Assembly (NCBI GenBank): GCA_944350415.1
Contig: CALVOY010000070.1
Span: 1-33,431 of the forward strand
Reading direction: 5' to 3'
Source of the DNA: an uncultured Bacilli bacterium
Lineage (GTDB): Bacteria > Bacillota_I > Bacilli_A > RF39 > UBA660
Length of the DNA stretch: 33,431 bases
Shown: piece by piece, positions 1 through 15,445 of the stretch
Position numbering within the stretch: position 1 is the stretch's first letter
Layout of the letters: each line of letters opens with the position of its first letter
Notes under the pieces: generated by a model
What the model was told of the DNA's origin: nothing
Database searches by the model: none
Seen by the model: the letters and a program-made list of their open reading frames with translations, nothing else
Translations under genes and position numbers: made by a program

Positions 1-87
1 GATGTTCCAGCAGTCTTAGTTGATAATAATAATGAATCTAAAATTATAGATATGGAAGATTTTTTAGAAAGAGATAATCATTTATAA
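1..87 (+). CDS. C-terminal end of an unidentified protein (partial)
   Basis: The window opens inside a reading frame that runs 28 codons to a TAA stop. The visible tail is acidic (for example IDMEDFLERDNHL at the end). Nothing in these residues identifies a family. It is read as a real gene end because the frame is open from the first base and codon use matches its neighbours, but the upstream sequence is needed to name it. Confidence 0.4.
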   Translation, partial: DVPAVLVDNNNESKIIDMEDFLERDNHL

Positions 88-118
88 CAAGAAATTATTA
101 GTAAACGGAATTTAAAAA

Positions 119-369: not shown

Positions 370-372
370 GTT

Positions 373-1056
373 ATGTATAGTGTATTATTAAGTGAATATG
401 AAAAGGGTATGGAATTAGTAGAAAAAAAATTAAAAGATAAAATTAAAATTGATAATAAAGCTGTAATAATTGCTTGGACTTTTCCTTTAGAAATTGATAA
501 GAAGACATTTGAAGAGGATTGGTTTCCAAAGGGAGGAAGAAGATATAATAAGTATGTTGGTTCATTATTAAAATTAGGATTAAAGGAGGAAAATATAACA
601 GTATTAAATTGTTATGATACAGAAAATTTTGAAAATTTTAAAAAAATAATAGATAATAGTGACATTTTAGTAATAACTGGTGGTAATCCTGAAATGTTAT
701 ACAGCAAGGTAACACAGGAAACTGAACTTTTATATAACATAAAACATTATAAAGGAATTATTATTGGATTTAGTGCTGGTGCTGATTTACAGCTAAAAAG
801 ATATTTTATTACTGCTAAGAACAATTACTATAAATATTTTGCTTTCTATGATGGCTTTGGGGTTCTAAATGATCCTTTTTATTTAGATGTTCATTCAAAA
901 AATAATAAAAAATATTTAGAAAAATTGCAGAGGGTAGCAAATGAAAAGAATAAACCAGTTTATGCTATTTTTGATGATGGTGCTATGATTTATGATAGAA
1001 GTTCTCAAGAACTAGAACTGTTTGGAAATGTTTTAAAATTTGAACCCGGTGACTAA
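373..1056 (+). CDS. Peptidase S51 (dipeptidase E/cyanophycinase-like) family protein
   Basis: This 227-residue protein has the layout of peptidase family S51, serine peptidases with a class I glutamine-amidotransferase-like fold that cleave Asp-X dipeptides or related substrates. Visible landmarks are a GGN turn at 103-105 (VITGGNPEML), the nucleophile elbow GFSAGAD with Ser134, and a likely catalytic His174 in DVHSKNN. Length is normal for the family (about 230 residues). There is no signal peptide, so it is probably cytosolic. GAAGG lies 6 nt before the ATG. The truncated HAD gene starts just after its stop, so both were probably one operon. The family is well supported; the substrate is not. 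Confidence 0.8.
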   Translation: MYSVLLSEYEKGMELVEKKLKDKIKIDNKAVIIAWTFPLEIDKKTFEEDWFPKGGRRYNKYVGSLLKLGLKEENITVLNCYDTENFENFKKIIDNSDILVITGGNPEMLYSKVTQETELLYNIKHYKGIIIGFSAGADLQLKRYFITAKNNYYKYFAFYDGFGVLNDPFYLDVHSKNNKKYLEKLQRVANEKNKPVYAIFDDGAMIYDRSSQELELFGNVLKFEPGD

Positions 1057-1057
1057 T

Positions 1058-1132
1058 ATGAAGTTACTAGTTACTGATTATGATAATACATTAGAACTAC
1101 ATTATGATTTTACTGATAATCATTCCATTTAA
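1058..1132 (+). pseudogene. N-terminal stub of a HAD-superfamily phosphatase
   Basis: A 24-codon frame starts 1 nt after the peptidase stop. It begins MKLLVTDYDNTLELHYDF, which carries the DxDNT nucleophile motif (Asp7, Asp9) that opens HAD phosphatases. It then stops at TAA, where a family member should run for 200 or more residues. The next 120 bases show no in-frame continuation that I can recognise as HAD. It is therefore read as the remnant of a deleted gene that was coupled to the peptidase gene. Confidence 0.55.
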
Positions 1133-1261
1133 AAAAGGAGCGTGTAAGAAAATCTGAGTAAGTGATATCTATCCATGATTATTGTTCCCCAAATTTCGAG
1201 AGTGAGTCTGTAAACCAATCATTTTACTTAAAAAATAATCATATAATTTATGGGTGATAAT

Positions 1262-1645
1262 ATGCTTCCTTTTATAATAACTTTTTTAGCGGGATGCTCT
1301 ACTTTAATAGGCTTTTTCTTTATCTATTTTAGAAATTCATCTAACAAGGTCTTAATTTCCTCTTTAGCGTTTGCTAGTGGTGTGATGTTTTTGATCTCTA
1401 TCTTAGACTTGATTCCTTCTTCTTTTTCTTCTATATCTGAAATTTATTATGTAGTACCTGCTTTTTTGATCTGTAGTTTATTTGTGGTAATTGGGATTGT
1501 TTTATCTATGACCATTGATAAATACTTGCCAGACAACACTTATCATGACTCTAATTTGTATCGTGTTGGTATGATTTCCATGATTGCGATTATGCTTCAT
1601 AATATTCCAGAAGGTTGTAGTTATTATGCATCACAGATAAATTAG
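1262..1645 (+). pseudogene. ZIP-family metal transporter, 5' half, interrupted by the integrative element
   Basis: The frame encodes the first half of a ZIP/ZupT-type divalent metal (Zn/Fe) transporter. It has hydrophobic helices near residues 1-22, 28-50 and 65-85, and ends at the metal-binding helix motif HNIPEG. After the second base of that Gly codon the sequence becomes element DNA, which adds CSYYASQIN and a stop. The start is taken at 1262 because GGTGAT lies 3 nt upstream, a spacing repeated at other genes here; the in-frame ATG at 1250 has no such site. A TATAAT box sits at 1242-1247. The rest of the gene is at 14977-15367, and together they would encode about 247 residues, a normal ZIP length. 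The half protein should be non-functional. Confidence 0.85.
1608..1624 (+). other. attL: left recombination junction
   Basis: The shared core CAGAAGG is followed by the element-side arm TTGTAGTTAT. Upstream is ZIP coding sequence (CATAATATTC). The arm is nearly the reverse complement of the arm at the right junction (ATAACTTCAA), with 9 of 10 positions matching, as expected for the two half-sites of one attP. Confidence 0.8.
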
Positions 1646-1830
1646 GAATATAATGTTGGTTTGTTAAAAAGAAATAGCTATAGTTTTTATGTTGATTTTT
1701 TGATAAAATTATGATGATAGTGTTAATATATGGGAAAGCTAGAAAAAGAAAAATGTTACAAATAATTATATAGTTTAAATGTATCTTGATTATGATGTTA
1801 AGAAGGTTTAGGAATTATTGAAAATAGGAC

Positions 1831-1859
1831 TGTTTAATATTTAATAAGCTTGATATAAT
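1831..1859 (+). promoter_or_regulatory. Probable promoter of the first helD-like gene
   Basis: A perfect -10 box TATAAT at 1854-1859 lies 17 bp after a weak -35 (TGTTTA at 1831-1836). It is 30 bp upstream of the helicase start. The weak -35 suggests activator dependence, and the adjacent LysR protein is a candidate; that link is inference. Confidence 0.5.
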
Positions 1860-1889
1860 AGGTAGAAATAATGTTAGGAGTAGACTTGT

Positions 1890-3929
1890 ATGGAGGAAGA
1901 ATTAAAATTAAAAGAAGTTATTGATGAATTTCAAAATTTAATAGATGAAAACAAATTAAAACAACAAGCAGTTATGAAAAATTATAGCCATGATGTTGAT
2001 ACAATGGTAAGTTTGTTAAATTCTCTAGAAAATAAAGAACAAACTTTAAAAATAAATATAGAGAAACCATATTTTGCTAGAATTGATTTTAAGGATTCTA
2101 ATTCTTTAAAAACTGAAGTATGTTATATTGGTAAGATTGGTACTATGAATGAAGATAATAAAATAGTAACTGTTGATTGGCGTACTCCAATTGCATCTCT
2201 GTATTATGATAGTGCATTGGGAAATACTGGTTATTTAGCACCTGAAGGAAGAATAGAAGGTAATCTTTTATTAAAAAGACAATATAATATTGAAAATAGA
2301 AAACTACTTGATTATTATGATGTTGATACTGTTTCTAATGACGAGTTGTTAAACTCATGTTTGTCTACTTCTGTTGATTCAAGATTGAAAAATATAGTTT
2401 CTACAATACAAAAAGAACAAAATGACATCATAAGAAAACCTATCGAACAAGATATTATTGTACAAGGTGTTGCTGGTAGTGGTAAAACAACTGTTGCCCT
2501 TCATAGAATCGCATATTTAGTTTATCAAAATCGTGATCATATAAATATTGATCAATATATGATAATTGGTCCTAATAAATTTTTTGTTAATTATATATCA
2601 AGTGTACTTCCTGATTTAGATGTTAATGGGGTAGGAGAATTTGATTTACTAGAATTTACGAATTCTTTTTTAGGTGAAAATATTAAGTTAGATAAAACTT
2701 CAGATGATTATATCACTAAGTTTAAAATGTCAATTTCTTATAAAGATTCTTTGGATAAATATGTGGTTAAATTGAATGAATTAGTAGTGTCAAATCAAGA
2801 TCTTGAGATGTTTGGTTTTACTATTATGAAAAGAGAAGAAATTTTAAAAATATATGATAGAGTTAGTAAAGATACTGAAATAATTTTAAATAGAGTTGAA
2901 AAAACGATAATGTTTATGAAAAAAGAAATTAATTTAAGACAAGAAAAATTGATTGTTTTAGCTAATAAATATATTGATTCTTTATTTGAAAGTGAAACTA
3001 ATAATGATGTATTAAAGAAATTAGTTAAGCAAAGAGAAATGATAAAAAAAGAAATAAAAAATGATTGTTCTTCAATAATAAGAAAATATTTTAATATCGT
3101 TAATGAAAAAACGAGTTTGTTATATATTAATTTCTTAAAGAATTTTTCGGATTATGAGGAAGGTGTAACTTTAACTTTAAAAAATCAAAAGATAAAATAT
3201 GAAGATTTGGTAGCTTTACTTTATTTAAGATATAGAATAGTTGGAAATGGTGATTATTTAAAATATCAACACGTAGTAATAGATGAATCACAAGATTATG
3301 GTGACTTTTTCTTTTATACTTTGAAATGCATTTTGAGTAATGCAAGTTTTAGTGTTTTTGGTGATCTAGCTCAAACAATTTATGAATATCGTACTATTGA
3401 ATCTTGGAATAAAGTTATTGAGGTTGGTTACGATAGTAATTTATATTACTTATCAAAAAGTTATCGTACAACCATAGAGATTATGGAAGCTGCTAATAAA
3501 ATTAATAAATATTTAGGTTTAACTGAAGCTGAAGCAGTTATAAGACATGGTAAAGAAGTAGTATATGAGAAACTATCTTATAGTTTATCAAATAGAATTA
3601 ATGAATTCTTAAATAAAGGTTATAAAACTATTGCAGTAATTAGTAAAACTAAAGAAGATGCATATTTAATCCATCAACAATTAAAAGATACATTGAATAT
3701 AAATTTAATTAGTGATGAAAGTTTAGAATATAATGGTGGTGTATGTTCTATTACGTCTAGTTTATCAAAAGGATTAGAATTTGATGCAGTTATTATTAAT
3801 AAGGCAGATTCTAATATTTTTAATATTGAAAATGATTTTGATATGAAGTTATTGTATGTATCAATGACAAGGGCATTGCATGAGCTTGTTGTTACTTATG
3901 ATAACGAATTAGTTAGTGTTTTGAAGTAG
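1890..3929 (+). CDS. HelD-family UvrD-like helicase/ATPase (first copy)
   Basis: This 679-residue protein is a HelD relative: an SF1 helicase-like ATPase that binds RNA polymerase and releases it from DNA or from stalled complexes. The N-terminal arm carries the family signature KPYFARIDF (59-67), followed by CYIGKIGT and VDWRTPIASLYYD. Walker A is GVAGSGKTT (193-201) and Walker B is DESQD (465-469, usually DEAQD). Later motifs are FGDLAQTIYEYR, KSYRTT, SKGLEFDAVI and LYVSMTRALHEL, so all ATPase motifs are present. It is somewhat shorter than B. subtilis HelD (774 residues). AGGAG lies 9 nt before the ATG. A lysR gene follows after 14 nt. A second HelD closes the cargo at 10319. Role in RNA polymerase recycling or drug protection is inferred from the family. 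Confidence 0.85.
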   Translation: MEEELKLKEVIDEFQNLIDENKLKQQAVMKNYSHDVDTMVSLLNSLENKEQTLKINIEKPYFARIDFKDSNSLKTEVCYIGKIGTMNEDNKIVTVDWRTPIASLYYDSALGNTGYLAPEGRIEGNLLLKRQYNIENRKLLDYYDVDTVSNDELLNSCLSTSVDSRLKNIVSTIQKEQNDIIRKPIEQDIIVQGVAGSGKTTVALHRIAYLVYQNRDHINIDQYMIIGPNKFFVNYISSVLPDLDVNGVGEFDLLEFTNSFLGENIKLDKTSDDYITKFKMSISYKDSLDKYVVKLNELVVSNQDLEMFGFTIMKREEILKIYDRVSKDTEIILNRVEKTIMFMKKEINLRQEKLIVLANKYIDSLFESETNNDVLKKLVKQREMIKKEIKNDCSSIIRKYFNIVNEKTSLLYINFLKNFSDYEEGVTLTLKNQKIKYEDLVALLYLRYRIVGNGDYLKYQHVVIDESQDYGDFFFYTLKCILSNASFSVFGDLAQTIYEYRTIESWNKVIEVGYDSNLYYLSKSYRTTIEIMEAANKINKYLGLTEAEAVIRHGKEVVYEKLSYSLSNRINEFLNKGYKTIAVISKTKEDAYLIHQQLKDTLNINLISDESLEYNGGVCSITSSLSKGLEFDAVIINKADSNIFNIENDFDMKLLYVSMTRALHELVVTYDNELVSVLK

Positions 3930-3943
3930 GAAGTGTATTTGTT

Positions 3944-4846
3944 ATGAACTTGGAAATATTAGATTTAAATTTAGATGTTTATAAGACCTTTTATGTTGTT
4001 TGTAAGGTAAGTAGTTATTCACAAGCTGCTAAGATATTAGGAGTTTCTCAACCAGCAGTTAGTTATAATATAAAGAAACTTGAAGAAAGATTGGGAATTG
4101 AATTGTTTAATAGAAAGTCTATTGGAATTGAATTGACTAAAGAAGCGGAGTCTTTGATATCATATATTGAAGATGCTTTAACTAGCATTTATATTGGTGA
4201 ACAGAAAATTAATTCACTTTTAAATTATAGTGCTGGAATTGTTTCTATTGGTATTCCATCGCATATAGGTGTTTTCTTATTAGTTGATTTGATAAAAGAA
4301 TTTAATATAAACTATCCTAATATAAAATTCAAAATTGTAAGTAAGTCTACGAAAGAGTTATTTAGACTTTTACATAATAATAGTATTGATTTAATTATTG
4401 ATAGTGCACCTATAGAAAATGGATATAATTTTTCAGTAAAGAAAATTGGAAAAGTAGATGGTGTATTTGCTTGTCATAAATCTCGTGTTGAATTATTAGA
4501 TGTTGAACTTGAACTTCAGGATATATGTAATTATCCATTAATCGTTCCTAATAATGATTCCAGTACTACTCAGGAACTATCAAGAATATTTATAAAAAAT
4601 AAAGTTGATTTTAATCCAATGTTTGAAGTTTCAACTAGTGATATGATTGCGAATATGGTTAGTAAAAATATTGGTATTGGATTTTTGTTAGAAAATACTT
4701 TAGCACTTTATCAAGATATTAAGAAGATAAATCTTGTAACGAAATTACCTTGTTTTGAGATTTATGAAATACATAAGGAAAATAATATTTCTGTTATTAC
4801 AAAAAAGTTTATTGATTATATTAATAATTATTTAAAACAAAATTAG
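3944..4846 (+). CDS. LysR-family transcriptional regulator
   Basis: The 300-residue length and layout are typical of LysR regulators. The N-terminal winged helix-turn-helix reads SYSQAAKILGVSQPAVSYNI, followed by KKLEERLGIELFNRKS and the linker helix. The rest is a periplasmic-binding-protein-like effector domain (GIVSIGIPSHIGVFLLVDLI onward). It is co-directional with, and 14 nt after, the first helD-like gene, so they are probably co-transcribed. The promoter of the radical SAM operon lies just downstream, making that operon a plausible target; LysR proteins often control adjacent genes, but usually divergent ones. The effector cannot be read from sequence. Confidence 0.88.
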   Translation: MNLEILDLNLDVYKTFYVVCKVSSYSQAAKILGVSQPAVSYNIKKLEERLGIELFNRKSIGIELTKEAESLISYIEDALTSIYIGEQKINSLLNYSAGIVSIGIPSHIGVFLLVDLIKEFNINYPNIKFKIVSKSTKELFRLLHNNSIDLIIDSAPIENGYNFSVKKIGKVDGVFACHKSRVELLDVELELQDICNYPLIVPNNDSSTTQELSRIFIKNKVDFNPMFEVSTSDMIANMVSKNIGIGFLLENTLALYQDIKKINLVTKLPCFEIYEIHKENNISVITKKFIDYINNYLKQN

Positions 4847-4874
4847 GAAGTATATATGGCTCCCTAATTTTTTT
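4840..4874 (+). terminator. Terminator after the helD-lysR unit
   Basis: AAATTAGG at 4840-4847 pairs with CCTAATTT at 4863-4870, followed by further T. The left arm overlaps the lysR stop codon. It separates this unit from the radical SAM operon promoter. Confidence 0.65.
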
Positions 4875-4929
4875 AATTTGCTTGTAATAGACATAAATTC
4901 TTTTTATACCTATTATCAAAAAATAAAAC

Positions 4930-4958
4930 TTGTTTTATAACTGTTGTTAGAATATAAT
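4930..4958 (+). promoter_or_regulatory. Promoter of the radical SAM operon
   Basis: TTGTTT at 4930-4935 and TATAAT at 4953-4958 are separated by exactly 17 bp. The start codon of the first radical SAM gene follows 20 nt after the -10. This is the strongest promoter match in the cargo, suggesting good basal expression. Confidence 0.75.
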
Positions 4959-4978
4959 TTTGTTAAAAGGGAGGATAT

Positions 4979-6064
4979 ATGAAAAAATATAGTGTTGGAT
5001 GGGGTTTGACAAATATATGCAATATGAATTGTCAATTTTGTTATAGTAAGATAGCAAGAGATAAAAACCAAGAGTTATCATTAAGCGATTGGATTAAATT
5101 TATTGATTTGAATCATGACAACATCGAAAGTATAAATTATGGGACAGGTGAAAATACTTTAATAGATGATTTTTTTATATTTATTGATTATGTAAGAACT
5201 AATTATCCTGAAATTACTCAATCACTCACTACTAATGGTCATTTATATGAAAAAATACAGTCTAATTCTAAATATTATGAAAGTTATTTAAGAAGTATAG
5301 ATGAAGTTGATGTGTCATTAGATTTTGCTGATAAGAGTAAACATACACAATTTAGAGGACAACCTAAAGCTTATGATTGGGCTATTAATACGCTTAAAAT
5401 GTTACAACAAGATCATAAGAAAGCAACCATTGTGTTTGTTGGTTTTGATGAAACTTTAGAAAAAGAAAATATTACGGGGCTTTTTAAAATTGCTTTAGAA
5501 TATGATGCATACTTAAGATTAAATATTTATCGTCCGACTTCTTGCAATGAAGAGATTAATAAAAGATTTATTCTTTCTGAAGATAAGTTATATGATGCTT
5601 TAGATTTTATAAATGAAAACTATCGTATCTTATCTTTGAATGACAGTTTGCTTGGTAATTTATATACTGATGAATTAGTGTCAGATAATACAGGGGTTAG
5701 TAGTATTAGAATTTTACCAAATGGTATGATTTGTCCTTCTACTTATTTGATTAGTGATGAGTATTTAAGTGATTATTCAATATTAGATGGTAAAATATTA
5801 GATAATTTGGAATTTCCTCAATTTGAAGCACCACCACTTCCTAAAGAATGTGATAATTGTTTAATAAAGGATAAATGTAAAGGTGGAGTTTTAGATAGAA
5901 GATATTTATGGTATGGAAGTTTAGAGGAAAGAGATCCATATTGTCCAACTAGGTCTAGTAAGGATTTACCTAAACAGAAATATAAGATTTATAAAAAAGA
6001 AAGAATATCTGTGCATGATGGATATTTACCAACATTATTTTTTGAGAATAGAGAGGATAAATAG
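4979..6064 (+). CDS. Radical SAM enzyme with SPASM-like C-terminal cluster domain
   Basis: The N-terminus GLTNICNMNCQFCYS holds the CxxxCxxC triad (Cys14, Cys18, Cys21) that binds the SAM-cleaving 4Fe-4S cluster. A radical SAM barrel follows, then a cysteine-rich C-terminal part (ICPSTYLI, ECDNCLIKDKCKGG, YCPT) that resembles SPASM/twitch domains holding auxiliary clusters. Length (361 residues) fits the class. GGGAGGA lies 4 nt before the ATG. It is the first gene of a five-gene operon whose spacing is 2 nt, 11 nt, overlap and overlap. SPASM enzymes often modify peptides, but no precursor peptide gene is visible nearby, and the neighbours are nucleoside enzymes. The substrate is unknown. Confidence 0.8.
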   Translation: MKKYSVGWGLTNICNMNCQFCYSKIARDKNQELSLSDWIKFIDLNHDNIESINYGTGENTLIDDFFIFIDYVRTNYPEITQSLTTNGHLYEKIQSNSKYYESYLRSIDEVDVSLDFADKSKHTQFRGQPKAYDWAINTLKMLQQDHKKATIVFVGFDETLEKENITGLFKIALEYDAYLRLNIYRPTSCNEEINKRFILSEDKLYDALDFINENYRILSLNDSLLGNLYTDELVSDNTGVSSIRILPNGMICPSTYLISDEYLSDYSILDGKILDNLEFPQFEAPPLPKECDNCLIKDKCKGGVLDRRYLWYGSLEERDPYCPTRSSKDLPKQKYKIYKKERISVHDGYLPTLFFENREDK

Positions 6065-6066
6065 TT

Positions 6067-6903
6067 ATGGAAAATTTTCAACCCAAAATTGCTATTATTA
6101 TGAGAGATGATGAAATAATAAAAGAATTTAATTTAAAACGTGTTACAGTTAATACTTCATTTGGTCCTGTACATCGTTGTTATGAAGGATATATATATAA
6201 TGTTCCTGTTTTAATAATATATGGAAGATTTAATGGTGAAAAAGTTCCTTCTTCATATATTAATCATGAACAAAATATTGAAGTTGTAAAGAATAGAAAT
6301 ATTTCTAAATTAATAGGTACCTTTGTTGTAGGGGGCATTAATCCAGAAATGCCGCAGGGTTCTGTGCATATCGTAAAAGATTTAGTTGGAATGGGTCCTT
6401 ATAAGATTCACTGGAATCAAAATCAACCATTTCACAATGCAGAAATGTATGAGCCTATTTGCCCTAAATTAACTAATATGTTAATTGCTGCAACTGAAAA
6501 TTTGGATTTTCCTGTAAAAAAAGATTCAATATATGTTACTTTTTATGGTTACCCTCGTATTGAAACAAAAGCTGAATTAGATTTTTATCATAGACAAGGA
6601 TGGGATATTGTAGGTCAGACATGTGATCCAGAAGCTACTCTTGCTAGACTTAATAGAATTTGTTATGCAGCTGTTTGTGTTCAAATAGATGATCCATTAG
6701 GAAGAAGTGAATATATTGGAACACTGAAAGAAAAAAAAGAGGCTAAACAATATGTTGAGTCAATAAAATCATGTCGTAAGAGAACTTCGAAATTAGTTCT
6801 TGAATTTTTGAAAAAGTTTCATGAAGAAGAATGCGAAACATGCGGTAAATTAATTAGAAAGAATAATAATTTTAGGGAGTTTCCTGATGATTTTTATGAA
6901 TAG
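6067..6903 (+). CDS. MTAP/PNP-type nucleoside phosphorylase-like protein
   Basis: This 278-residue protein resembles methylthioadenosine/purine nucleoside phosphorylases, which split a nucleoside with phosphate to a base and ribose-1-phosphate. Family-like stretches are RNISKLIGTFVVGGINPEM (near residues 77-95), VKDLVG in place of the usual phosphate/dimer segment, FHNAEMYEPICPKL and the late GWDIVGQT...PEATLAR segment. In MTAP that last region is close to MT-PEA-LA, so the match is good. A C-terminal tail with CETCGK is unusual and could bind a metal. It starts 2 nt after the radical SAM stop, so the two are tightly coupled. One suggested role is removal of 5'-deoxyadenosine made by the radical SAM enzymes; a pathway role on a nucleoside intermediate is equally possible. 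Confidence 0.72.
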   Translation: MENFQPKIAIIMRDDEIIKEFNLKRVTVNTSFGPVHRCYEGYIYNVPVLIIYGRFNGEKVPSSYINHEQNIEVVKNRNISKLIGTFVVGGINPEMPQGSVHIVKDLVGMGPYKIHWNQNQPFHNAEMYEPICPKLTNMLIAATENLDFPVKKDSIYVTFYGYPRIETKAELDFYHRQGWDIVGQTCDPEATLARLNRICYAAVCVQIDDPLGRSEYIGTLKEKKEAKQYVESIKSCRKRTSKLVLEFLKKFHEEECETCGKLIRKNNNFREFPDDFYE

Positions 6904-6914
6904 GAGTTTTTAAA

Positions 6915-7373
6915 ATGTTTGTTTTTATAGCTATGCCATACTCACAATTATGTGATGAGAATTATTTGTTAAAGCCAGAATATAAAGATTTTTGTATAAA
7001 ATTGACAACTAAACTCAAAGAGATTGGATGCACTTATTTTTTAGCTCATGAAAGAGAAAATTGGGGTAAAGAATATTCAAAAGATATTGAAAGTACAGAA
7101 ATAGATTTTAATACGATTTCTAGATGTGATTTGGTATGTATGATACCTGGGGTTCCTGCTTCTGGTGGAGTTCATGTTGAATTAGGTTGGGCATCTGCTG
7201 CACATAAAAAAATCAATTTGTTTCTTCAAAAAGATTATTTTTATTCACCGATGGTTACTGGTATTGATATCTTAACTGATGCAAGAAAATATTATTATGG
7301 TAACGATTATGATGATAAATTAGTTGATATTATCATTGATAGTGTGAAGGAAAGGATGAATGAAAATGCTTAA
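6915..7373 (+). CDS. Nucleoside 2-deoxyribosyltransferase-like protein
   Basis: The 152-residue length and motifs fit the nucleoside 2-deoxyribosyltransferase superfamily, which makes or breaks N-glycosidic bonds in (deoxy)nucleosides or nucleotides. The start FVFIAMPYSQ is the typical first strand and loop. The active-site region GVPASGGVHVELGWASAAHK carries the glutamate expected to attack the sugar (the E of HVELGWA), preceded by CDLVCMIPG. Members of this superfamily include the CMP hydrolases BlsM and MilB of nucleoside antibiotic pathways. The gene sits between a phosphorylase and a kinase-like gene and overlaps the latter by 14 nt. The exact reaction is unknown. Confidence 0.75.
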   Translation: MFVFIAMPYSQLCDENYLLKPEYKDFCIKLTTKLKEIGCTYFLAHERENWGKEYSKDIESTEIDFNTISRCDLVCMIPGVPASGGVHVELGWASAAHKKINLFLQKDYFYSPMVTGIDILTDARKYYYGNDYDDKLVDIIIDSVKERMNENA

Positions 7374-8325
7374 AAAATATGATTTTACTATTGCAGGTTG
7401 TTGTATACATTTATATACTGATGTTTCTTCTGTTATTAAAAAACTAGATACTGAACCAAGAACAGTTCTTAAAACTATACCTTGTAACATTACAAAATGT
7501 GGTGATTTTGATCAAATATTTGAAAATCAAAATTGTGTTTTTATTTTATCAGGTAATGAGAAAACGATAAGTGTTGATAAAGAAAAAAATACAGCAACTT
7601 TAATTTCTCCAGTTGATAAATTTCGTTTTCCAGATTTTGTTTATGTGCTTTTGGGAATGTTTATAAATTTATTAAAGGATGAAAAAAAATATTTATTACA
7701 TTCTGCTACCGTAGCTGATGATAATAATCGTTCAATAATACTTGTTGGTGATCCTGGCAGTGGAAAAAGTACGCTCGCTTATCATTTGATAAGAAATTAT
7801 AATTATAAATTAATTTCTAATGATACTACTGTGTTAAGTATGGAAGATGATAAGTTAAGAACTATTGCTGGAACTAAACAAATGCAATTGCGTTTAGGAG
7901 CTGTTAAATTATATTTTCCAGATTTGTTGCCTAGTTTAGAAAAAGAAGACTCTATGAAAAATGAATGGGATTGTAAACCATATATTAATAATATTTTAGA
8001 AAATGATAACGTGGAATTTGCTGATGAATCAGTAGTTAAAAGTATTTTTCATATTACTACAGCTAAGGATACAGAATTAGCAATAAGAGAAGAAGAAGAG
8101 GTTGATAAACGTTTATATATATATGAACAATTAATCCGCCAGATTCGTAGTACTAGAAACTTAATTGTTGGTTATAATTATCCATTACCATCTTTTGAAA
8201 CAGAAGCAGTTAATTTGGATATTGCTGCCATTTCAAAAAGAATAGTAGATACTACAGCCATTTATGATATAAGAGGAAGTATAAATGAAGTTGCGAAAGA
8301 AATGGTAAAACGTCATGAAAAATAA
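7360..8325 (+). CDS. HPr-kinase-like P-loop protein
   Basis: This 321-residue protein has an N-terminal domain without recognisable motifs, then the signature of HprK-like kinases: LLHSATVADD, Walker A GDPGSGKST (residues near 129-137), ISNDTTVLS (the HPr-kinase D-D segment) and GTKQMQLRLGA. Such domains occur outside sugar regulation, for example beside lasso-peptide and other natural-product genes, where some phosphorylate the product or precursor. The ATG at 7360 is preferred because AAGGA lies 8 nt upstream; an in-frame ATG is at 7366. It overlaps the genes on both sides (14 nt and 11 nt), so it is translationally coupled. It could phosphorylate a nucleoside intermediate; this is inference. 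Confidence 0.68.
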   Translation: MKMLKKYDFTIAGCCIHLYTDVSSVIKKLDTEPRTVLKTIPCNITKCGDFDQIFENQNCVFILSGNEKTISVDKEKNTATLISPVDKFRFPDFVYVLLGMFINLLKDEKKYLLHSATVADDNNRSIILVGDPGSGKSTLAYHLIRNYNYKLISNDTTVLSMEDDKLRTIAGTKQMQLRLGAVKLYFPDLLPSLEKEDSMKNEWDCKPYINNILENDNVEFADESVVKSIFHITTAKDTELAIREEEEVDKRLYIYEQLIRQIRSTRNLIVGYNYPLPSFETEAVNLDIAAISKRIVDTTAIYDIRGSINEVAKEMVKRHEK

Positions 8326-9868
8326 AATATACTTAGTAACATTATCTCCAAATACTCATAGAACAAGTGAAGAAAATCTTGGAATTTTATATTTGAAATC
8401 TTCTTTAATAAAAGTTGGTTATCAAGTAGAAATTATTGATGGATGGTTAAATGAATATAGTATTGAAGATGTATTTAACAAAATTGTTTATGATGAAGAG
8501 CTATTATTTGTTGGAATTTCTTCTTATATGTCTAATACTAAACCTTCTATTGAGCTTGTTCAATTATTAAAAAAGGCTTATCCTGATATTAAAATAGTAG
8601 GTGGTGGATTTGGTCCTACGTTTTATCCGAATGACCATTTAGATAATGGTTATGATTTTATATGTAAGGGTGAGGGTGAGATTTCTTTAGTTGAACTTGC
8701 AGACTGTTTGAAAAGTGGTAGTAGTTATAAGGAAATAAAAGGAATTAGTTATAAAGATAATGATATTATTATTAATAATCCTTGGCAGAATTTGGTGGAT
8801 GATTTAGATAGTTTACCATTTCCTGCTAGAGATACTATAGATATTGTTTTAAAAAATAAATCAACAGTTAATATGTTAACATCTAGAGGTTGTTCTGGTA
8901 ATTGTGAATTTTGTTCTGTAATTTCTTTTTTTAGATTGAGTGATGGTAGAATTTGGAGAACTCGATCTATTACTAATATTGTTGATGAAATAGAAAATTT
9001 ATATCAACAAGGAGTATCTTATATTAAAATGGTTGATGATAGTTTTGTTGATGGTATTAGGGATGTAAAATGGTGTCATGATTTTGCTAATGAGATTAAT
9101 AAAAGAAACATAAAAGTTAATTTACGTGGTCAAATTAGAGCGGATAAAATTACTGATGAAATATTATTTTATTTAAGAGAAGCTGGTTTTTTTTCATTCG
9201 CTTGTGGAATTGAGAATGGAAGTGAAACGGCTTTAGCTAGAATGAATAAGAAGGCTACTCTAGAAGATAATAGAAGAGCTTTGAAATTATTTAAAAAATA
9301 TCAATATTTAGTTCAAATGGGATTTATTTTATTTGATAGAGAAACTACGCTTGAGGAGTTAGAGGAAAATTATCGCTTTTTAAGAGAATTTGAATATACG
9401 GTTACTAAAGGAATATTTTCAGAAATGTATTCTGCTGAAGGCACTTTTCTTAATTCTAAGTTGAGAAAAAATAATCAATTATCAGAAAGTGATTTTATAC
9501 ACAATAACAATAAATATCAGTTGGTTGTTCCGGAAGTAAAGTTAATATATGATGCACTTAAATTATGGCATAAGAGTCATAGTGAAGTTTATGATATGAC
9601 TATTGATCCGTTAACAGCTCCTAAAGCTTTACCTAGAGAAGAACTACAATTGTTTTATGATTATGCGATGCAATTAAAAAGAAAAGATTTAGAAGTTTTT
9701 AAGGGTATATTAGACTTATCTAGAAAAAATCCAAATGACATAAATGCTTTTGTTTTAGATTCTATTACTAATTCTTCGGATTTTTATGATTCTATAGAAC
9801 AAGGTGTAGCTAAAGTTTATCAAAAGAATGGATTTAATTATAATGCTTCTAGAAATCCGTTTATATAA
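8315..9868 (+). CDS. B12-binding-type radical SAM enzyme
   Basis: The first 150 residues form a Rossmann-like cobalamin-binding-type domain (IYLVTLSPNTHR, LKSSLIKVGYQVEIIDG, FVGISSYMSN, IKIVGGGFGPTFY, FICKGEGE). The radical SAM core follows with TSRGCSGNCEFCS (Cys193, Cys197, Cys200), then FACGIENGSETALARMNK, a stretch typical of this class. The usual DxHxxG B12 ligand motif is not evident, as in many class members. About 120 residues after the barrel show no family I recognise. B12-dependent radical SAM enzymes methylate unreactive carbons or, like OxsB in oxetanocin synthesis, rearrange a nucleotide sugar. It is the last gene of the operon, overlapping the kinase-like gene by 11 nt. Confidence 0.82.
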   Translation: MKNKIYLVTLSPNTHRTSEENLGILYLKSSLIKVGYQVEIIDGWLNEYSIEDVFNKIVYDEELLFVGISSYMSNTKPSIELVQLLKKAYPDIKIVGGGFGPTFYPNDHLDNGYDFICKGEGEISLVELADCLKSGSSYKEIKGISYKDNDIIINNPWQNLVDDLDSLPFPARDTIDIVLKNKSTVNMLTSRGCSGNCEFCSVISFFRLSDGRIWRTRSITNIVDEIENLYQQGVSYIKMVDDSFVDGIRDVKWCHDFANEINKRNIKVNLRGQIRADKITDEILFYLREAGFFSFACGIENGSETALARMNKKATLEDNRRALKLFKKYQYLVQMGFILFDRETTLEELEENYRFLREFEYTVTKGIFSEMYSAEGTFLNSKLRKNNQLSESDFIHNNNKYQLVVPEVKLIYDALKLWHKSHSEVYDMTIDPLTAPKALPREELQLFYDYAMQLKRKDLEVFKGILDLSRKNPNDINAFVLDSITNSSDFYDSIEQGVAKVYQKNGFNYNASRNPFI

Positions 9869-9879
9869 GCTTAATTTAT

Positions 9880-9908
9880 TTGCGGCATTATATAAAAAAT
9901 GATATAAT
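9880..9908 (+). promoter_or_regulatory. Promoter of the pyrophosphatase-like/helD unit
   Basis: TTGCGG at 9880-9885 and TATAAT at 9903-9908 are separated by 17 bp, within the 88-nt gap after the radical SAM operon. No terminator is visible in that gap, so read-through from the operon is also likely. Confidence 0.7.
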
Positions 9909-9956
9909 ATGTTTGAAAAATTAAGAGATATTATTGAATTGAATGGAGGAAGAAAT

Positions 9957-10292
9957 ATGAAAACTGAAAATTATTTAGGGCAATTAGTAAATGTAAAGAT
10001 GGATAGACCGTTAGGAACTAAACATCCAAAACATGGGTTTATTTATTTAGTTAATTATGGTTATATTCCTGGTACAGTAAGTGGAGATGGTGAAGAGTTA
10101 GATGCTTATGTGTTAGGAGAATTCGAACCACTTGATGAATTTGAGGGAAAAGTTATAGCAATTATTCGCCGTACTAATGACAATGATGATAAGTTGGTTG
10201 TAGCAAAAGAAGGTAAGAATTATACTGATGATCAAATTCGTGCGTTAGTAGAATTTCAAGAACAGTTTTTTGAATCTATAATTATTCGCTAA
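9957..10292 (+). CDS. Small inorganic-pyrophosphatase-like protein
   Basis: The 111-residue protein (MKTENYLGQLVNVKMDRPLG...) resembles family I inorganic pyrophosphatases in HPKHGFIYLVNYGYIPGT and in SGDGEELDAYVLG, which corresponds to the metal-binding signature D-G-D-P-L-D; here the third position is Glu rather than Asp. It is shorter than classical enzymes (about 170 residues) but similar short versions occur in Firmicutes. GGAGG lies shortly before the ATG at 9957, whereas the in-frame ATG at 9909 lies at the -10 box and would be too early. It may hydrolyse pyrophosphate or another phosphoanhydride made by the cargo pathway. The second HelD follows after 26 nt. Confidence 0.72.
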   Translation: MKTENYLGQLVNVKMDRPLGTKHPKHGFIYLVNYGYIPGTVSGDGEELDAYVLGEFEPLDEFEGKVIAIIRRTNDNDDKLVVAKEGKNYTDDQIRALVEFQEQFFESIIIR

Positions 10293-10318
10293 TTATAAAT
10301 ATTATTGGGGGTATAAAA

Positions 10319-12496
10319 ATGGGAGAAGAGGAAAAATATTTAGAGTATACTTTAAATTTGATAAGGAAGAGTTTAGAAGAAGAGTTAGAAAATTTTGATG
10401 AATTGGAATTTAAATATCGTAGAGATCCAGATAGATATGGTGTTGCATATAGAATCGCTTGTAATAATTTAAAGATTTTAAATAATGGTATTTTAAAACC
10501 GTATTTTGCTCGAATTGATTTTAAAACAGATGGTTGTGTTGATTCGGAAAAAATTTATATTGGAAAGTATGGTATTTATGATAGTGAATCTAAACCGATT
10601 GTTGTAGACTGGAGAGCACCAATTTCTAGTTTATATTATGATTCTGAGATTGGTATTGCTTCATATGTTTGTCCAGAAGGAGTTATAAGTGGTAGATTGA
10701 CTTTAAAAAGACAATTTGAATTAGAAGATGGAAAGTTATTAAGTTATCACGATGTTGATATTGTAAGTAATGATAATCTTTTACAGAAATATTTGCAATC
10801 TAATAATGATATGAGATTAAAAAATATTGTTTCTACAATTCAGTCTGAACAAAATGTTGCTATTCGTAAACCTTTAAACATTAATACTATTATTCAAGGT
10901 GTTGCTGGTAGTGGTAAGACTACTATAGCTCTTCATAGAATTGCATATTTAGTTTACAACTATAGGGATAAAATAAAAAATAATCAATATATGGTAATAG
11001 GTCCTAATGATGTTTTCTTAAAATATATTGAATCAGTATTACCGGATTTAGATGTCTCAGATGTTAATCAACAGACTTTTGAAAGATTTGCGAAAGAAAT
11101 AATTGATGAAGATATTCAAATTAAAAATTCTTCTAAGAAGCTTAATTTATATTTGACAAACAAAATAAATAATAATATTCCAAAATTTAAAAGTTCTGAT
11201 GAATTTAGAATGATGCTTGATTTGTTCTTAGATGATTATTTTGAAAAAGTTATATCAGATGGGTTAGTTGTAAAGGAATTTGAAGTTGTTGATAAAATAA
11301 CACTTTATCAATTGTACCAAAATGCTTTAAAACAATCACAAAATTTTAGTGAGGCAACTGATAAGTTTGTTGTGTTAGTGAAAAATTATGTTGAGGAACA
11401 CTTTGATGCAATAATTTCTAGATTAAATAAGAAATTATTAAATGAATTTCAAAATGAAAAAGTAGATAAAGATGCTTTTAATAAAAAACGTAAATCCATA
11501 TACGAAGAAATTCAAAGGGGATGCAAACAAATCTCGAGAAAATATATATCTAAGTATAATTTGACTCCAACAAAATTATATAAAATGTTTATAACGAATA
11601 TTAGAGAATATGGTTTGACTGATTATTCTTATATGGAAGAGTTAATAAGTGAGACATTAGGAAGTGTAAAAGAAAAGAGTTTTGATTTTGAAGATTTAGC
11701 CCCACTTATGCATATAAGATATAGATTAGGTATAGATAGAAGTTTTATTAATTATCGTCATGTAGTAATAGATGAAGCACAAGATTTAGGAAAGTTTAAC
11801 TTTTATGTATTAAAAGAATGCCTTCCTAATGCAACTTTTTCAATTTATGGTGATATAGCACAATCTATTTATGATTATAGAAGTATTGATTCTTGGGATG
11901 AAGTAAGAGATGTATTAGGAAATTGTGAATTAATATCTTTCAGAAAGTCATATCGTACAACTGATGAGATTATGACTGTTGCTAATAGTATTGCTGAAAG
12001 TTTAAATCTTGAAACTTCTGAGTTATCTATACGTCATGGTGAAAATGTTACATTTAATCAAGTGGAAAAAGAGAATATTCCAGCTTATATAAAGAATAAA
12101 ATTATTGAGTATAAAGAGAAAGGTTATAAAACTATTGCGGTAATTAGTAAATATCCGATTCAATCAAGTTATATTAATGATGATTTATCTTTTGAGGGTT
12201 TAACGGTTTTAAATATCGATGAAAAAACTGATGTTACTGCTAATAGTAATGGAATTTCAACTATATCTAATTATTTAGCAAAAGGTCTTGAATTTGATGC
12301 TGTAATATTAAATGATGTAAGTGAAGAAATATATAATTCAGATAATCCATCTGATATGAAAATGTTATATGTTGCATTAACAAGGGCTCTTCATGAAATG
12401 GATGTTGTTTATTCTAAAAATATAACACGTCCACTTGCTAAGTTTGTTAATGATAAAAATATTATAGAAAAACCAGTTATTAAAGTAAAAAAATAG
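10319..12496 (+). CDS. HelD-family UvrD-like helicase/ATPase (second copy)
   Basis: This 725-residue paralogue of the protein at 1890 has all HelD landmarks: KPYFARIDF and IYIGKYGIYD, VDWRAPISSLYYD, Walker A GVAGSGKTT (194-202), Walker B DEAQD (485-489), YGDIAQSIYDYR, KSYRTT, AKGLEFDAVI and LYVALTRALHEM. It is closer to the family consensus than the first copy (DEAQD rather than DESQD). GGGGG precedes the ATG. HelD proteins pull RNA polymerase off nucleic acids and, in HelR-type members, protect it from rifampicin. Two diverged copies in one element suggest a specific need for polymerase protection or recycling rather than housekeeping. Confidence 0.86.
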   Translation: MGEEEKYLEYTLNLIRKSLEEELENFDELEFKYRRDPDRYGVAYRIACNNLKILNNGILKPYFARIDFKTDGCVDSEKIYIGKYGIYDSESKPIVVDWRAPISSLYYDSEIGIASYVCPEGVISGRLTLKRQFELEDGKLLSYHDVDIVSNDNLLQKYLQSNNDMRLKNIVSTIQSEQNVAIRKPLNINTIIQGVAGSGKTTIALHRIAYLVYNYRDKIKNNQYMVIGPNDVFLKYIESVLPDLDVSDVNQQTFERFAKEIIDEDIQIKNSSKKLNLYLTNKINNNIPKFKSSDEFRMMLDLFLDDYFEKVISDGLVVKEFEVVDKITLYQLYQNALKQSQNFSEATDKFVVLVKNYVEEHFDAIISRLNKKLLNEFQNEKVDKDAFNKKRKSIYEEIQRGCKQISRKYISKYNLTPTKLYKMFITNIREYGLTDYSYMEELISETLGSVKEKSFDFEDLAPLMHIRYRLGIDRSFINYRHVVIDEAQDLGKFNFYVLKECLPNATFSIYGDIAQSIYDYRSIDSWDEVRDVLGNCELISFRKSYRTTDEIMTVANSIAESLNLETSELSIRHGENVTFNQVEKENIPAYIKNKIIEYKEKGYKTIAVISKYPIQSSYINDDLSFEGLTVLNIDEKTDVTANSNGISTISNYLAKGLEFDAVILNDVSEEIYNSDNPSDMKMLYVALTRALHEMDVVYSKNITRPLAKFVNDKNIIEKPVIKVKK

Positions 12497-12655
12497 AATA
12501 ATTAAATAGTTAGTTTTTTCTTATTAAAAATATCTATATTAGTCAATAATTAAAAAACTAGATATGTATCTATTTTAATAAAACCTTTATCAATAAGTAT
12601 TTACTCGTAATTGAAACGACATTTTTACGGTATTTTAATAGACATTTATTCCATA

Positions 12656-12683
12656 TTGACTATAAGAAATGGCATGATACAAT
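12656..12683 (+). promoter_or_regulatory. Promoter in the non-coding region after the cargo
   Basis: TTGACT at 12656-12661 and TACAAT at 12678-12683 with a 16-bp spacer. A terminator follows only about 30 bp downstream, so most transcripts from here should be very short, or it acts as an attenuated promoter for the recombinase region. Confidence 0.6.
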
Positions 12684-12689
12684 ATGATA

Positions 12690-12746
12690 GAATATGAAAT
12701 AATTTTATAGTTAAGTGCAAGTCTAAAAAAAGATTTGTGCTTTTTT
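12690..12746 (+). ncRNA. Candidate short RNA or attenuated leader
   Basis: If transcription starts about 7 nt after the -10 box and stops at the following U-tailed hairpin, the product is near 57 nt with no reading frame of note. No known RNA family is recognised. Alternatively this is a leader whose terminator must be passed to express the small gene and recombinase downstream. Confidence 0.3.
12715..12746 (+). terminator. Terminator or attenuator
   Basis: GTGCAAGTCT (12715-12724) can pair over 10 positions, including G-U pairs, with AGATTTGTGC (12731-12740) around a short A-rich loop, followed by six T. Confidence 0.7.
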
Positions 12747-12781
12747 CATATTCAAAAATCCTCCTTAATAATAAGAATAAT

Positions 12782-12798
12782 GGCCATAACTTTGTCCA
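12782..12798 (+). repeat. GGCCATAACT-TGTCCA repeat, copy 1
   Basis: GGCCATAACTTTGTCCA here recurs as GGCCATAACTATGTCCA at 13073-13089 (16 of 17 identical, same orientation). A third partial copy, GGCCATAATT, is at 13061-13070. They frame the hairpin-rich stretch upstream of the recombinase and could be protein-binding sites. Confidence 0.6.
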
Positions 12799-12879
12799 AT
12801 ATGTACATTAAAAAGTACCAGAATATGAATTGAAATTTGAAAAAAGTGTAGAAAAAATGTGTTAACATTTGTATAACAC

Positions 12880-13015
12880 CCTTATAAAATAAGGATGATA
12901 AAGTAAACGATTGTATAACATTTTCTTTAAGTGTAAACATCTAGTTTTTTACTAATACCTTATGAAATAAGGATAAACTAGCTACTAGCTAGTTGTATGT
13001 ATACGGGTTTATCCT
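12880..13015 (+). other. Hairpin-rich non-coding segment upstream of the recombinase
   Basis: This part of the 860-bp gap between the second helD and the recombinase holds no convincing gene. It contains two near-identical hairpins, CCTTAT-AAA-ATAAGG (12880-12894) and CCTTAT-GAA-ATAAGG (12958-12972). The second is enclosed by CTAGTTT (12941-12947) and AAACTAG (12975-12981). Overlapping it, AGGATAAAC (12970-12978) pairs with GTTTATCCT (13007-13015), with a CTAGCTA-C-TAGCTAG near-palindrome inside. The alternatives are mutually exclusive foldings. TTGTATAACA also occurs twice (12869 and 12911). Possible roles are recombinase regulation, an oriT-like site or a riboregulator; none is shown. Confidence 0.5.
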
Positions 13016-13060
13016 GCTTTTAATTGATTTGGATAATGTTGAAAAAATGATAATTTCTTT

Positions 13061-13089
13061 GGCCATAATTTAGGCCATAACTATGTCCA
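13061..13089 (+). repeat. GGCCATAA repeats, copies 2 and 3
   Basis: GGCCATAATT (13061-13070) is followed directly by GGCCATAACTATGTCCA (13073-13089), forming a tandem pair with 12-bp periodicity, close to one helical turn. This could place two protein monomers on one DNA face, about 90 bp before the small gene that precedes the recombinase. Confidence 0.5.
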
Positions 13090-13176
13090 TAGATTTTAAT
13101 AATTTTATAAATAAATATTATTACTTTCACATAAATTTAAATGAGTAATCAAAAAAAGAATAAAGGGGGGGATTTG

Positions 13177-13302
13177 ATGAAACAAGAATTAAAGTTTAAT
13201 TTATTTTATGACAATGTTAATGAAGACTTAGAACAGTTATTAGTATCTGCAATTATTAATTATTTAAATAATAAAAAGGAAATGGGCTTACATTTTGGTT
13301 AA
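13177..13302 (+). CDS. Small hypothetical protein (41 aa) before the recombinase
   Basis: An ATG preceded by a very strong ribosome site (AAAGGGGGGG, spacing 6) opens a 41-residue frame that begins MKQELKFNLFYDNVNEDLEQ and ends MGLHFG. It is mostly predicted helical, with an acidic middle and an LLVSAIINYLN segment. No family is recognised. It lies 55 nt upstream of the recombinase in the same direction. Small genes in this position often encode directionality or regulatory factors, but nothing in the sequence proves it here. Confidence 0.55.
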   Translation: MKQELKFNLFYDNVNEDLEQLLVSAIINYLNNKKEMGLHFG

Positions 13303-13357
13303 AGTGCGTTATTATAATTATAATCAATATTATATTTCTAATAAGTGAGGAGGTAAA

Positions 13358-14959
13358 ATGTATAATACATTAAGAAATATAGTAAAAGAATTTTTTGTTG
13401 CAATATATATAAGACTATCTAAAGAAGATGATAATTTAGGTGAAAGTGAAAGTATACAAAATCAAAAAATATTATTAACTAAATATGTTAAAGAACAAGG
13501 TTATATTTTAGTAGATATTTATATTGATGATGGATATACTGGTACTAATTTTAATAGACCTAGTTTCCAAAGAATGTTAAGAGATATTGAAAGCGGTAAA
13601 GTAAATATGGTCATTACTAAAGACTTATCAAGGTTATCAAGAGATTACATTGGTACAGGTGAATATGTGGAAAAATGGTTTCCAGCTCATAATGTTAGAT
13701 ATGTTGCACTTACTGATAATATAGATACATTTTTAGATAATTCAAACAATGATATCGCACCTTTTAAGGCAATACTTAACGATATGTATGCTAAAGATTT
13801 ATCTAAGAAGATTAGAACGGCACTTCATACTATGCAAAGCGAAGGTAAGTGGGTAGGTGGATGTCCGCCTTTTGGATATAAAGCAGATCCTAACGATAAA
13901 AATCATTTAGTCATTGATGAAATTGAAGCACCAATAGTTAGAAGAATATTTGATATGTTCGCTAGTGGGGTTAGGATTAATAAAATAAGGGATATATTTA
14001 ATAATGAAAATGTACCAACATTTTCTACAACTAGAAATAGAAATTTTGTAAGAAATGGCAGTAATGGTAATATTTATGGTTATTGGTGTAATACCACAAT
14101 AAAAAAAATATTACAGAATAGATTATATACAGGAGATATGATACAAAATAGGCGATCTAGACTTAGTTATAAATATCGAAAGATTATTTGTAATCCAAAA
14201 GAAAGTTGGATAGTTGTAGAGAATACTCATGAAGCAATTGTTGATAAAGATACTTTTAATAAAGTCCAAAAATTATTACCTAAACAACATCAAAGAAACG
14301 ATAAAAAGGAATTATTCCTATTAGATGGATTATTAACTTGTGCTGATTGTGGTCATAATATTGGAATACGTGCTAGACGTGCTAATGGTAAGAGTACAAC
14401 AGTTTGTAATTACTATAGAAAGTATAATAAAGATTTTAGATTATGTACTTCACATGGTTTTGATTATGATAAATTAGAAAAAGGTATCGTAAATGAAATC
14501 AAGAAAGTAATATATTTAGTTAATAATGATAAATTAGAGTCAGAGATTCTAAAAAGATATCAAAATAATAATACATTTGATACTTATAGAAAAACTAAAG
14601 AAAAATTAGAATTTGAACTTGAATCTATAAATAATAATTTAGATAATATGTATATTGACAAACTGGAAAATAAAATAACTGAAGAAATGTATGAAAGAGT
14701 GTATGATAAGTTAAAAAATGAAATATCTTTGAAGAAAGATAAACTGAGTGAAATTAATGAATATTTAGATAAATTAAGTAGTTATGAAGATTCATTTAGT
14801 ATTATAAAAAAAGAAGTAGGTGAGTTTAAAAATAAATATCCTACTCGTGATTTAATACTTAAATTAATTAAAAATATTTCCATACATGAAGATGGAAATA
14901 TCGATATTTATTTCAACTTTAAAGAGTTGAATATTATTTATGAAAATCATGATGCCTGA
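13358..14959 (+). CDS. Large serine recombinase (TnpX/integrase type)
   Basis: The 533-residue protein catalyses integration and excision of the element by paired double-strand cuts through a phosphoserine link. The N-terminal resolvase domain has the nucleophile Ser21 in AIYIRLSKED, then IYIDDGYTGTNFNRPSFQRM and TKDLSRLSRDYI with conserved arginines. The recombinase domain follows (GGCPPFGYKADP...TIKKILQNRLYTGD), then a zinc ribbon (CADCGHNIG ... CNYYRK ... CTSHGF) and a long C-terminal coiled coil. This order matches Tn4451 TnpX-like enzymes. GAGGAGG precedes the ATG. The stop codon overlaps the attachment arm at the right end, as usual for an integrase beside its att site. It appears intact, so the element may still move. 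Confidence 0.93.
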   Translation: MYNTLRNIVKEFFVAIYIRLSKEDDNLGESESIQNQKILLTKYVKEQGYILVDIYIDDGYTGTNFNRPSFQRMLRDIESGKVNMVITKDLSRLSRDYIGTGEYVEKWFPAHNVRYVALTDNIDTFLDNSNNDIAPFKAILNDMYAKDLSKKIRTALHTMQSEGKWVGGCPPFGYKADPNDKNHLVIDEIEAPIVRRIFDMFASGVRINKIRDIFNNENVPTFSTTRNRNFVRNGSNGNIYGYWCNTTIKKILQNRLYTGDMIQNRRSRLSYKYRKIICNPKESWIVVENTHEAIVDKDTFNKVQKLLPKQHQRNDKKELFLLDGLLTCADCGHNIGIRARRANGKSTTVCNYYRKYNKDFRLCTSHGFDYDKLEKGIVNEIKKVIYLVNNDKLESEILKRYQNNNTFDTYRKTKEKLEFELESINNNLDNMYIDKLENKITEEMYERVYDKLKNEISLKKDKLSEINEYLDKLSSYEDSFSIIKKEVGEFKNKYPTRDLILKLIKNISIHEDGNIDIYFNFKELNIIYENHDA

Positions 14960-15367: not shown

Positions 15368-15403
15368 AAATTATAGAATGGAATTTTATTGTTTGTTTTA
15401 TTA

Positions 15404-15430: not shown

Positions 15431-15445
15431 GATATTTATAAAATT

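Follow-up and report, generated by a model that had tools for sequence, protein, structure and literature searches.

Oxetanocin is made with a B12-dependent radical S-adenosylmethionine (rSAM) enzyme and an HD hydrolase, albucidin with a B12-dependent and a second rSAM enzyme (PMC13331322, PMC7074753). 4'-Thiothymidine is the product of a radical SAM cluster of three genes (PMC12691670). Here we report on a stretch of 33,431 nucleotides from an uncultured Bacilli bacterium (RF39, UBA660; GenBank assembly GCA_944350415.1, contig CALVOY010000070.1, positions 1 to 33,431), the window in the following, in which genes for two rSAM enzymes, one of them B12-binding, are joined with genes for nucleoside-type enzymes on an integrative element. 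A preliminary description, made from the sequence, had proposed a five-gene operon at 4930-9868. We read the locus as a mobile biosynthetic cassette whose rSAM pair serves to remodel a nucleoside or nucleotide and which further comprises a kinase, glycosidases, a pyrophosphatase and a LysR regulator, with tolerance via HelD and spread by a recombinase, and assign to this reading a probability of roughly 0.58. Every cassette enzyme belongs to a known superfamily; a description of this combination was not found in the open-licence literature searched.

The window contains the five open reading frames (ORFs), all on the forward strand, with the intergenic gaps of 2 and 11 nt and the two overlaps already described. 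The first gene, rSAM1 (4979..6064), encodes a radical SAM protein with SPASM-like C-terminal cysteines (PF04055, 1.5e-14); its CxxxCxxC motif is present in 15 of 15 family members. After 2 nt follows an enzyme of the MTAP/PNP superfamily, a nucleosidase or phosphorylase whose phosphate site is rewritten (6067..6903; PDB MTAP structures, 5e-19), and after another 11 nt a MilB/BlsM-type CMP N-glycosidase-like hydrolase (6915..7373). The gene of an HprK/PEPCK-fold kinase-like protein (7360..8325; Walker A in 18 of 18 family members) overlaps the hydrolase gene by 14 nt and is itself overlapped by 11 nt by that of the B12-binding radical SAM enzyme, B12-rSAM (8315..9868; PF02310 and PF04055). Pfam and NCBIfam profiles upheld the five family labels: radical SAM, PNP/MTAP superfamily, nucleoside deoxyribosyltransferase-like, HprK-like P-loop protein and B12-binding radical SAM. 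Thus, the five genes are real; the unit, however, is longer than proposed. Upstream is a LysR-type regulator (3944..4846, forward strand; Pfam HTH_1 and LysR_substrate), which adjoins rSAM1 in 12 loci. Downstream, on the same strand, are a small family-I inorganic pyrophosphatase-like protein (9909..10292; PF00719, 3.2e-10) and a HelD-like RNA polymerase recycling motor (copy B, 10319..12496), which starts 4-33 nt after the pyrophosphatase in 15 loci. The conserved block accordingly reads LysR, rSAM1, MTAP-like, MilB/BlsM-like CMP hydrolase, HprK-like, B12-rSAM, small pyrophosphatase, HelD, and the five ORFs are its middle. A further HelD-like motor (copy A, 1890..3929, forward strand) precedes the LysR gene. 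The near-consensus promoter proposed upstream of rSAM1 did not hold up: the -10 box is perfect (TATAAT, 4953-4958), yet the -35 box (TTGTTT, 4930-4935) matches at three of six positions only, and promoter-like sites in this region were no commoner than in shuffled sequence. A riboswitch was looked for and none was found.

The block recurs in other genomes. Among 243 genomes of the same family as the window, a search with the HprK-like protein returned, apart from the window itself, six strong relatives at 36-43% identity. Four of these have the same order, LysR, rSAM1, MTAP, (CMP-hydrolase-like), HprK, B12-rSAM, pyrophosphatase, HelD, with 59-73% identity for rSAM1, MTAP, hydrolase, B12-rSAM and pyrophosphatase; one of the four (L017) has an extra cytidine-deaminase-like gene. 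In the other two (L018 and L019) a different SPASM rSAM, termed rSAM2, and an amidohydrolase replace rSAM1, MTAP and hydrolase. The whole unit is syntenic in more than 12 other loci from Bacilli metagenome-assembled genomes (MAGs). A profile scan with B12-rSAM across genomes gave 35 loci. After gene calling, the neighbors at the 34 usable ones were an rSAM partner (33), pyrophosphatase (28), HelD (21), HprK (18), MTAP (13), hydrolase (9), amidohydrolase (5) and cytidine deaminase (2), counts which are not fully independent because several contigs end near the block and some loci duplicate those of the family genomes. Hence, the genes occur together in more than this one genome, and because their order is kept in many others, the arrangement is not due to chance. 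Of the two refuting outcomes named in the preliminary description, neighbors united in a single genome only or a short precursor gene in every homologous operon, neither was observed. Single-protein scans with the MTAP-like protein against the genome and viral contigs and with B12-rSAM against the viral contigs gave no match. As a side observation, L018 has a second B12-rSAM copy (L018:521-1993) beside the intact one; it lacks CxxxCxxC, which suggests a catalytically dead partner.

Carriage on a mobile element, as predicted, was borne out by boundaries and an empty site. A 13.36-kb integrative element (1615-14976) is inserted in a ZIP transporter gene, of which the halves remain at both ends (1250-1645 and 15008-15367). 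The 7-bp core CAGAAGG is present at 1608-1614 and 14970-14976, and joining 1614 to 14977 at the core restores a ZIP ORF of 251 codons. A genome of the same genus (G014) has the intact ZIP gene, 99% identical, and window positions 1-1614 and 14970-19453 align to it; the two alignments share 7 bp, CAGAAGG. At the right end of the element is a large serine recombinase (13358..14959, forward strand; PF00239, PF07508 and PF13408). This is a serine-recombinase integrative element with end recombinase, split target gene, core repeat and an empty site in a relative. Three other genomes of the genus (L075, L077 and L079) have recombinase sequence beside the ZIP gene. One of them, G016, contains a different 4-kb element at the same ZIP position with an 87% identical serine recombinase and other cargo, named by eye as ASCH-like and GNAT-like genes; thus, the site is an insertion hotspot. 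Related recombinases are located near six clostridial cassettes (L049, L050, L051, L053, L054 and L055). Elsewhere in the window, at 20122-20466, is a bacterial class B RNase P RNA (Rfam RF00011, 293 bits).

The analogies to OxsB and to BlsM/MilB, drawn in the preliminary description, proved to be the best matches among solved structures by sequence. For the hydrolase, profile comparison with the PDB gave the CMP N-glycosidase 4jen at 5e-31, MilB at 7e-26 and BlsM at 3e-21, against 0.005 for deoxyribosyltransferases. It carries GGVHVELGWAS, and the motif GxHxE(L/I)GWAS, the Glu of which we take to be the catalytic residue, is found in eight of nine family members. The deoxyribosyltransferase-like protein therefore groups with the MilB/BlsM CMP hydrolases, and hydrolysis of CMP or 5-hydroxymethyl-CMP is predicted. 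The MTAP-like protein misses the TIGR01694 cut-off by far (94.9 vs 274.85 bits). At its phosphate site the archaeal PRHGRG aligns to YGRFNG and SAVGS to FVVGG, so that the Arg-His pair and the Thr, presumably the phosphate-binding residues of MTAP, are not kept. The replaced motifs are conserved within the family, which has invariant motifs of its own, YGRFN and VQIDDP; the AlphaFold model has a pLDDT of only 41. The HprK-like protein scored 16.9 bits with the HPr(Ser) kinase/phosphatase model, below the cut-off of 240. Its AlphaFold model (pLDDT 86.6) matched the structures of PEP carboxykinase and HPr kinase, i.e. in the model it has the HprK/PEPCK fold, with a Walker A motif. B12-rSAM has a B12-binding domain fused to a radical SAM core with CxxxCxxC, and OxsB is the closest PDB entry (6.5e-27).

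From these families a route may be sketched. The SPASM-type rSAM and the OxsB/BchE-like B12-rSAM would remodel a nucleoside or nucleotide. The MTAP-like and the MilB/BlsM-type enzymes, judged by their families, would open N-glycosidic bonds and so supply or trim base or sugar; in some cassettes a 5'-deoxyadenosine/MTA-deaminase-like amidohydrolase would stand in for the MTAP-like enzyme, so that base or adenosyl parts would be processed by either type. The protein with the HprK/PEPCK fold probably phosphorylates an intermediate or the product, and the small pyrophosphatase, again by family, would remove pyrophosphate or pull reactions. LysR may sense a small molecule. The whole cassette, the insertion of which is evident from the split ZIP gene, would be inserted and spread by the large serine recombinase. 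HelD might let the host tolerate an effect of the product on transcription; this is the weakest step, and we regard it as rather doubtful.

The accessory genes vary, and most encode nucleoside or nucleotide enzymes: MTAP-like, 5'-deoxyadenosine/MTA-deaminase-like, cytidine deaminase, CMP hydrolase, dTMP-kinase-like, guanylate-kinase-like and HD hydrolase, the last as an HD-domain gene inside the operon of L039. Together with synteny this supports the small nucleoside or nucleotide pathway proposed earlier; that the product itself is a nucleoside or nucleotide we infer. In the Bacilli cassettes MTAP and amidohydrolase were mutually exclusive, i.e. no locus had both. In L038 and L039 the amidohydrolase occupies the place of MTAP, and in the B12-rSAM tree L038 nests among MTAP carriers, as expected if both do alternative versions of one step. 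The L018 amidohydrolase, a relative of the L038/L039 enzyme, scored well against 5'-deoxyadenosine deaminase and MTA/SAH deaminase-like models. The futalosine pathway offers a parallel; there, adenine is removed directly or after deamination.

Beyond Bacilli, a core of B12-rSAM and a SPASM-type rSAM, usually with the pyrophosphatase, was present in Clostridia, in a Liptonbacterium of the candidate phyla radiation (CPR), in Streptomyces clavuligerus and on an Enterococcus plasmid; thus, the rSAM pair recurs across phyla. In clostridial MAGs rSAM2 and B12-rSAM are 12-13 nt apart and the pyrophosphatase is usually nearby on the opposite strand. These cassettes add a histidine phosphatase, a SAM methyltransferase, dTMP-kinase-like and guanylate-kinase-like proteins and a further P-loop protein. 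Relatives also occurred in the CPR bacterium (L059), where B12-rSAM is apparently broken into two frames, and in an Oscillospiraceae MAG (L060). On the S. clavuligerus plasmid (L080:11968-17061) a B12-rSAM, 41% identical over the full length, is followed by an rSAM2-type enzyme, an APH kinase and an HprK-like protein. On the plasmid of Enterococcus sp. M190262 (L081:9986-17353) the B12-rSAM is 36% identical, followed by an rSAM2-type enzyme, pyrophosphatase, an adenylation-carrier protein and an MFS transporter. Plasmids of Priestia and Paraclostridium carry the pyrophosphatase without the other genes, so its mere presence is no marker. MTAP matches on plasmids, e.g. of Neorhizobium, were rejected as cassettes because the rest of the genes was absent. 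We also note a clostridial-type cassette fragment (L056) in a MAG labeled Bacilli, from the same bin as L041. It is near-identical to L054/L055, and either mis-binning or a recent transfer would account for it.

Several observations weigh against our reading. The kinship of B12-rSAM to OxsB is remote (68.5 bits by single sequence), and among the NCBIfam models it is BchE that it matches best; this implies the class, not the OxsB reaction, a ring contraction of 2'-deoxyadenosine nucleotides. A tree with an OxsB fragment had very long branches from which kinship to OxsB is unreadable. HelD also occurs beside sugar-type clusters (L026 and L027), so its link to nucleosides is not specific and a more general partner role is suggested. 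The MTAP-like enzyme and the amidohydrolase could instead clear 5'-deoxyadenosine from the rSAM enzymes. Finally, in Enterococcus the core stands next to an adenylation/carrier protein, and the product of the core might therefore be an amino or carboxylic acid.

The last two points converge in the strongest competing explanation, in which MTAP-like enzyme and amidohydrolase only recycle 5'-deoxyadenosine and S-adenosylhomocysteine from the rSAM enzymes and the rSAM pair makes a non-nucleoside, e.g. an unusual amino acid. The fit of the amidohydrolase to the deaminase models and its alternation with MTAP agree with this, as both would handle 5'-modified adenosines, and so does the union of the Enterococcus core with amino acid adenylation, carrier protein and MFS transporter. 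Yet the CMP hydrolase, cytidine deaminase, dTMP-kinase-like and guanylate-kinase-like genes are then left unexplained, and an MTAP for plain recycling should have retained the MTAP phosphate site, which the MTAP-like protein did not. We consider pure recycling unlikely, although it is the foremost rival of a nucleoside or nucleotide pathway.

HelD acts on stalled RNA polymerase, which it recycles, and is able to displace rifampicin (PMC11464796). Both window copies scored within 35 bits of the cut-off of 419 for NCBIfam NF041464, HelD_BACSU (copy A 384.5, copy B 392.2), and two relatives exceeded it (L047, 477.8; L027, 433.4). In a census of 58 genomes of the family (E < 1e-60) HelD was detected in 12. 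All five cassette genomes in this sample had it next to the cassette (G000, G047, G109, G112 and G053; the G053 contig holds pyrophosphatase, amidohydrolase and HelD). The hypergeometric chance of five in five is 792/4,582,116, about 2 in 10,000 with shared ancestry ignored. That a protein rare in the family accompanied the cassette in all five genomes suggests RNA polymerase protection or recycling; that it guards against the product of the cassette itself is a tentative proposal. The two sugar-type clusters (L026:7384-16909 and L027:5881-17346) are operons with HprK-like, APH kinase, PHP, UDP-glucose dehydrogenase and HelD genes, one of them with a serine recombinase. G025 (L088:274-4693) has a tandem HelD pair beside PHP-like and kinase-like genes and no cassette. 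A separate operon in L023, L024 and L025 consists of glycosyltransferase, archaeal-type AdoMet synthetase (PF01941), HprK-like and Nudix genes; its synthetase is a second one for SAM.

HelD could also be fitted into an anti-phage defence of the viperin sort, in which the rSAM enzymes would make a modified nucleotide that arrests phage polymerases, and HelD would remove host RNA polymerase that has stalled. The patchy and mobile distribution, the nucleotide kinases in some versions, the HelD linkage and a weak similarity of rSAM1 to prokaryotic viperins (53 bits) are compatible with this. However, rSAM1 reached 48.4 bits with the NCBIfam viperin model, well below the cut-off of 180, and the mycofactocin-type rSAM model scored higher; PADLOC gave only weak superfamily matches and no defence model matched well; and the LysR regulator and the Enterococcus exporter suggest a secreted metabolite. 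Defence appears improbable.

The best profile scores of rSAM1 and rSAM2 were to mycofactocin and other peptide maturases. In other systems both SPASM rSAM and B12-rSAM enzymes act on peptides, and lasso peptide clusters contain HprK-like proteins. A ribosomally synthesized and post-translationally modified peptide with its precursor gene elsewhere is nevertheless disfavored, and very improbable. Between adjacent genes of the block there is anything from overlap to 132 nt, the widest site being that between LysR and rSAM1, which shrinks to 51 nt in relatives. Such short gaps, seen in every relative, could not accommodate a precursor peptide gene, in agreement with the preliminary description, which had seen none. 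Around the core of S. clavuligerus and of Enterococcus the annotation shows none either, and nucleoside enzymes are found instead. Equally remote is the reading that the island serves the catabolism or salvage of some unusual exogenous nucleoside, which would explain the glycosidic-bond-cleaving enzymes and the LysR regulator, but not the large investment in two rSAM enzymes and B12 chemistry, nor a Bacilli block without transporter gene and with kinases but no genes of a lower sugar pathway.

Should the cassette yield a nucleoside-type antimetabolite, then gut-type bacteria with genomes of 1 Mb, which are not known for secondary metabolism, would exchange antibiotic-like pathways on serine-recombinase elements. 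A link of the pathway to HelD, if true, would give a widespread RNA polymerase recycling motor a natural role beyond rifamycin protection. In the boldest version, which is speculative and which we deem unlikely, a horizontally mobile pathway family would extend from tiny-genome gut bacteria to Streptomyces, the rSAM pair making a novel nucleoside or nucleotide scaffold that hits RNA polymerase and HelD providing self-protection. Because the rSAM pair is present in culturable hosts (the S. clavuligerus and Enterococcus plasmids), its chemistry is testable.

How does the cassette compare with the known systems? In oxetanocin A biosynthesis a nucleotide is likewise processed by a B12-rSAM, OxsB, and a phosphohydrolase, OxsA. 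Among solved structures none is closer to the window B12-rSAM than OxsB, and cassette L039 has an HD-domain gene. Yet OxsB comprises 744 residues, including an additional N-terminal domain (PMC13331322), and the window enzyme has 517 and low identity. Its alignment starts at OxsB residue 137-154, i.e. the N-terminal domain is absent. The window also lacks an HD gene, and the cassette adds a second rSAM, the HprK-like protein and the hydrolases. Albucidin is alike in that two rSAM enzymes, one of them B12-dependent, give a remodeled nucleoside (AlbA/AlbB, equal to AlsA/AlsB; PMC7074753, PMC13331322). AlbA, however, is biotin-synthase-like and rSAM1 of the window SPASM/mycofactocin-like, and pyrophosphatase, HprK-like protein and HelD are not reported for albucidin. 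With mildiomycin and blasticidin S the window shares a hydrolase which by profile belongs with MilB, BlsM and 4jen; genes of a cytosylglucuronate-type pathway are missing from the window, and the hosts of the cassette are not actinomycetes. The thmABC cluster for 4'-thiothymidine consists of three genes of other families without a B12-rSAM, yet it too is a nucleoside pathway of very small size that uses radical SAM chemistry and includes kinase and triphosphatase roles (PMC12691670). As to recycling and rifamycin protection by HelD/HelR, rifamycin genes are absent here; nevertheless, the HelD copies of the window come close to the cut-off for Bacillus subtilis HelD, two relatives surpass it, and the motor travels as cargo of what we read as a mobile biosynthetic cassette.

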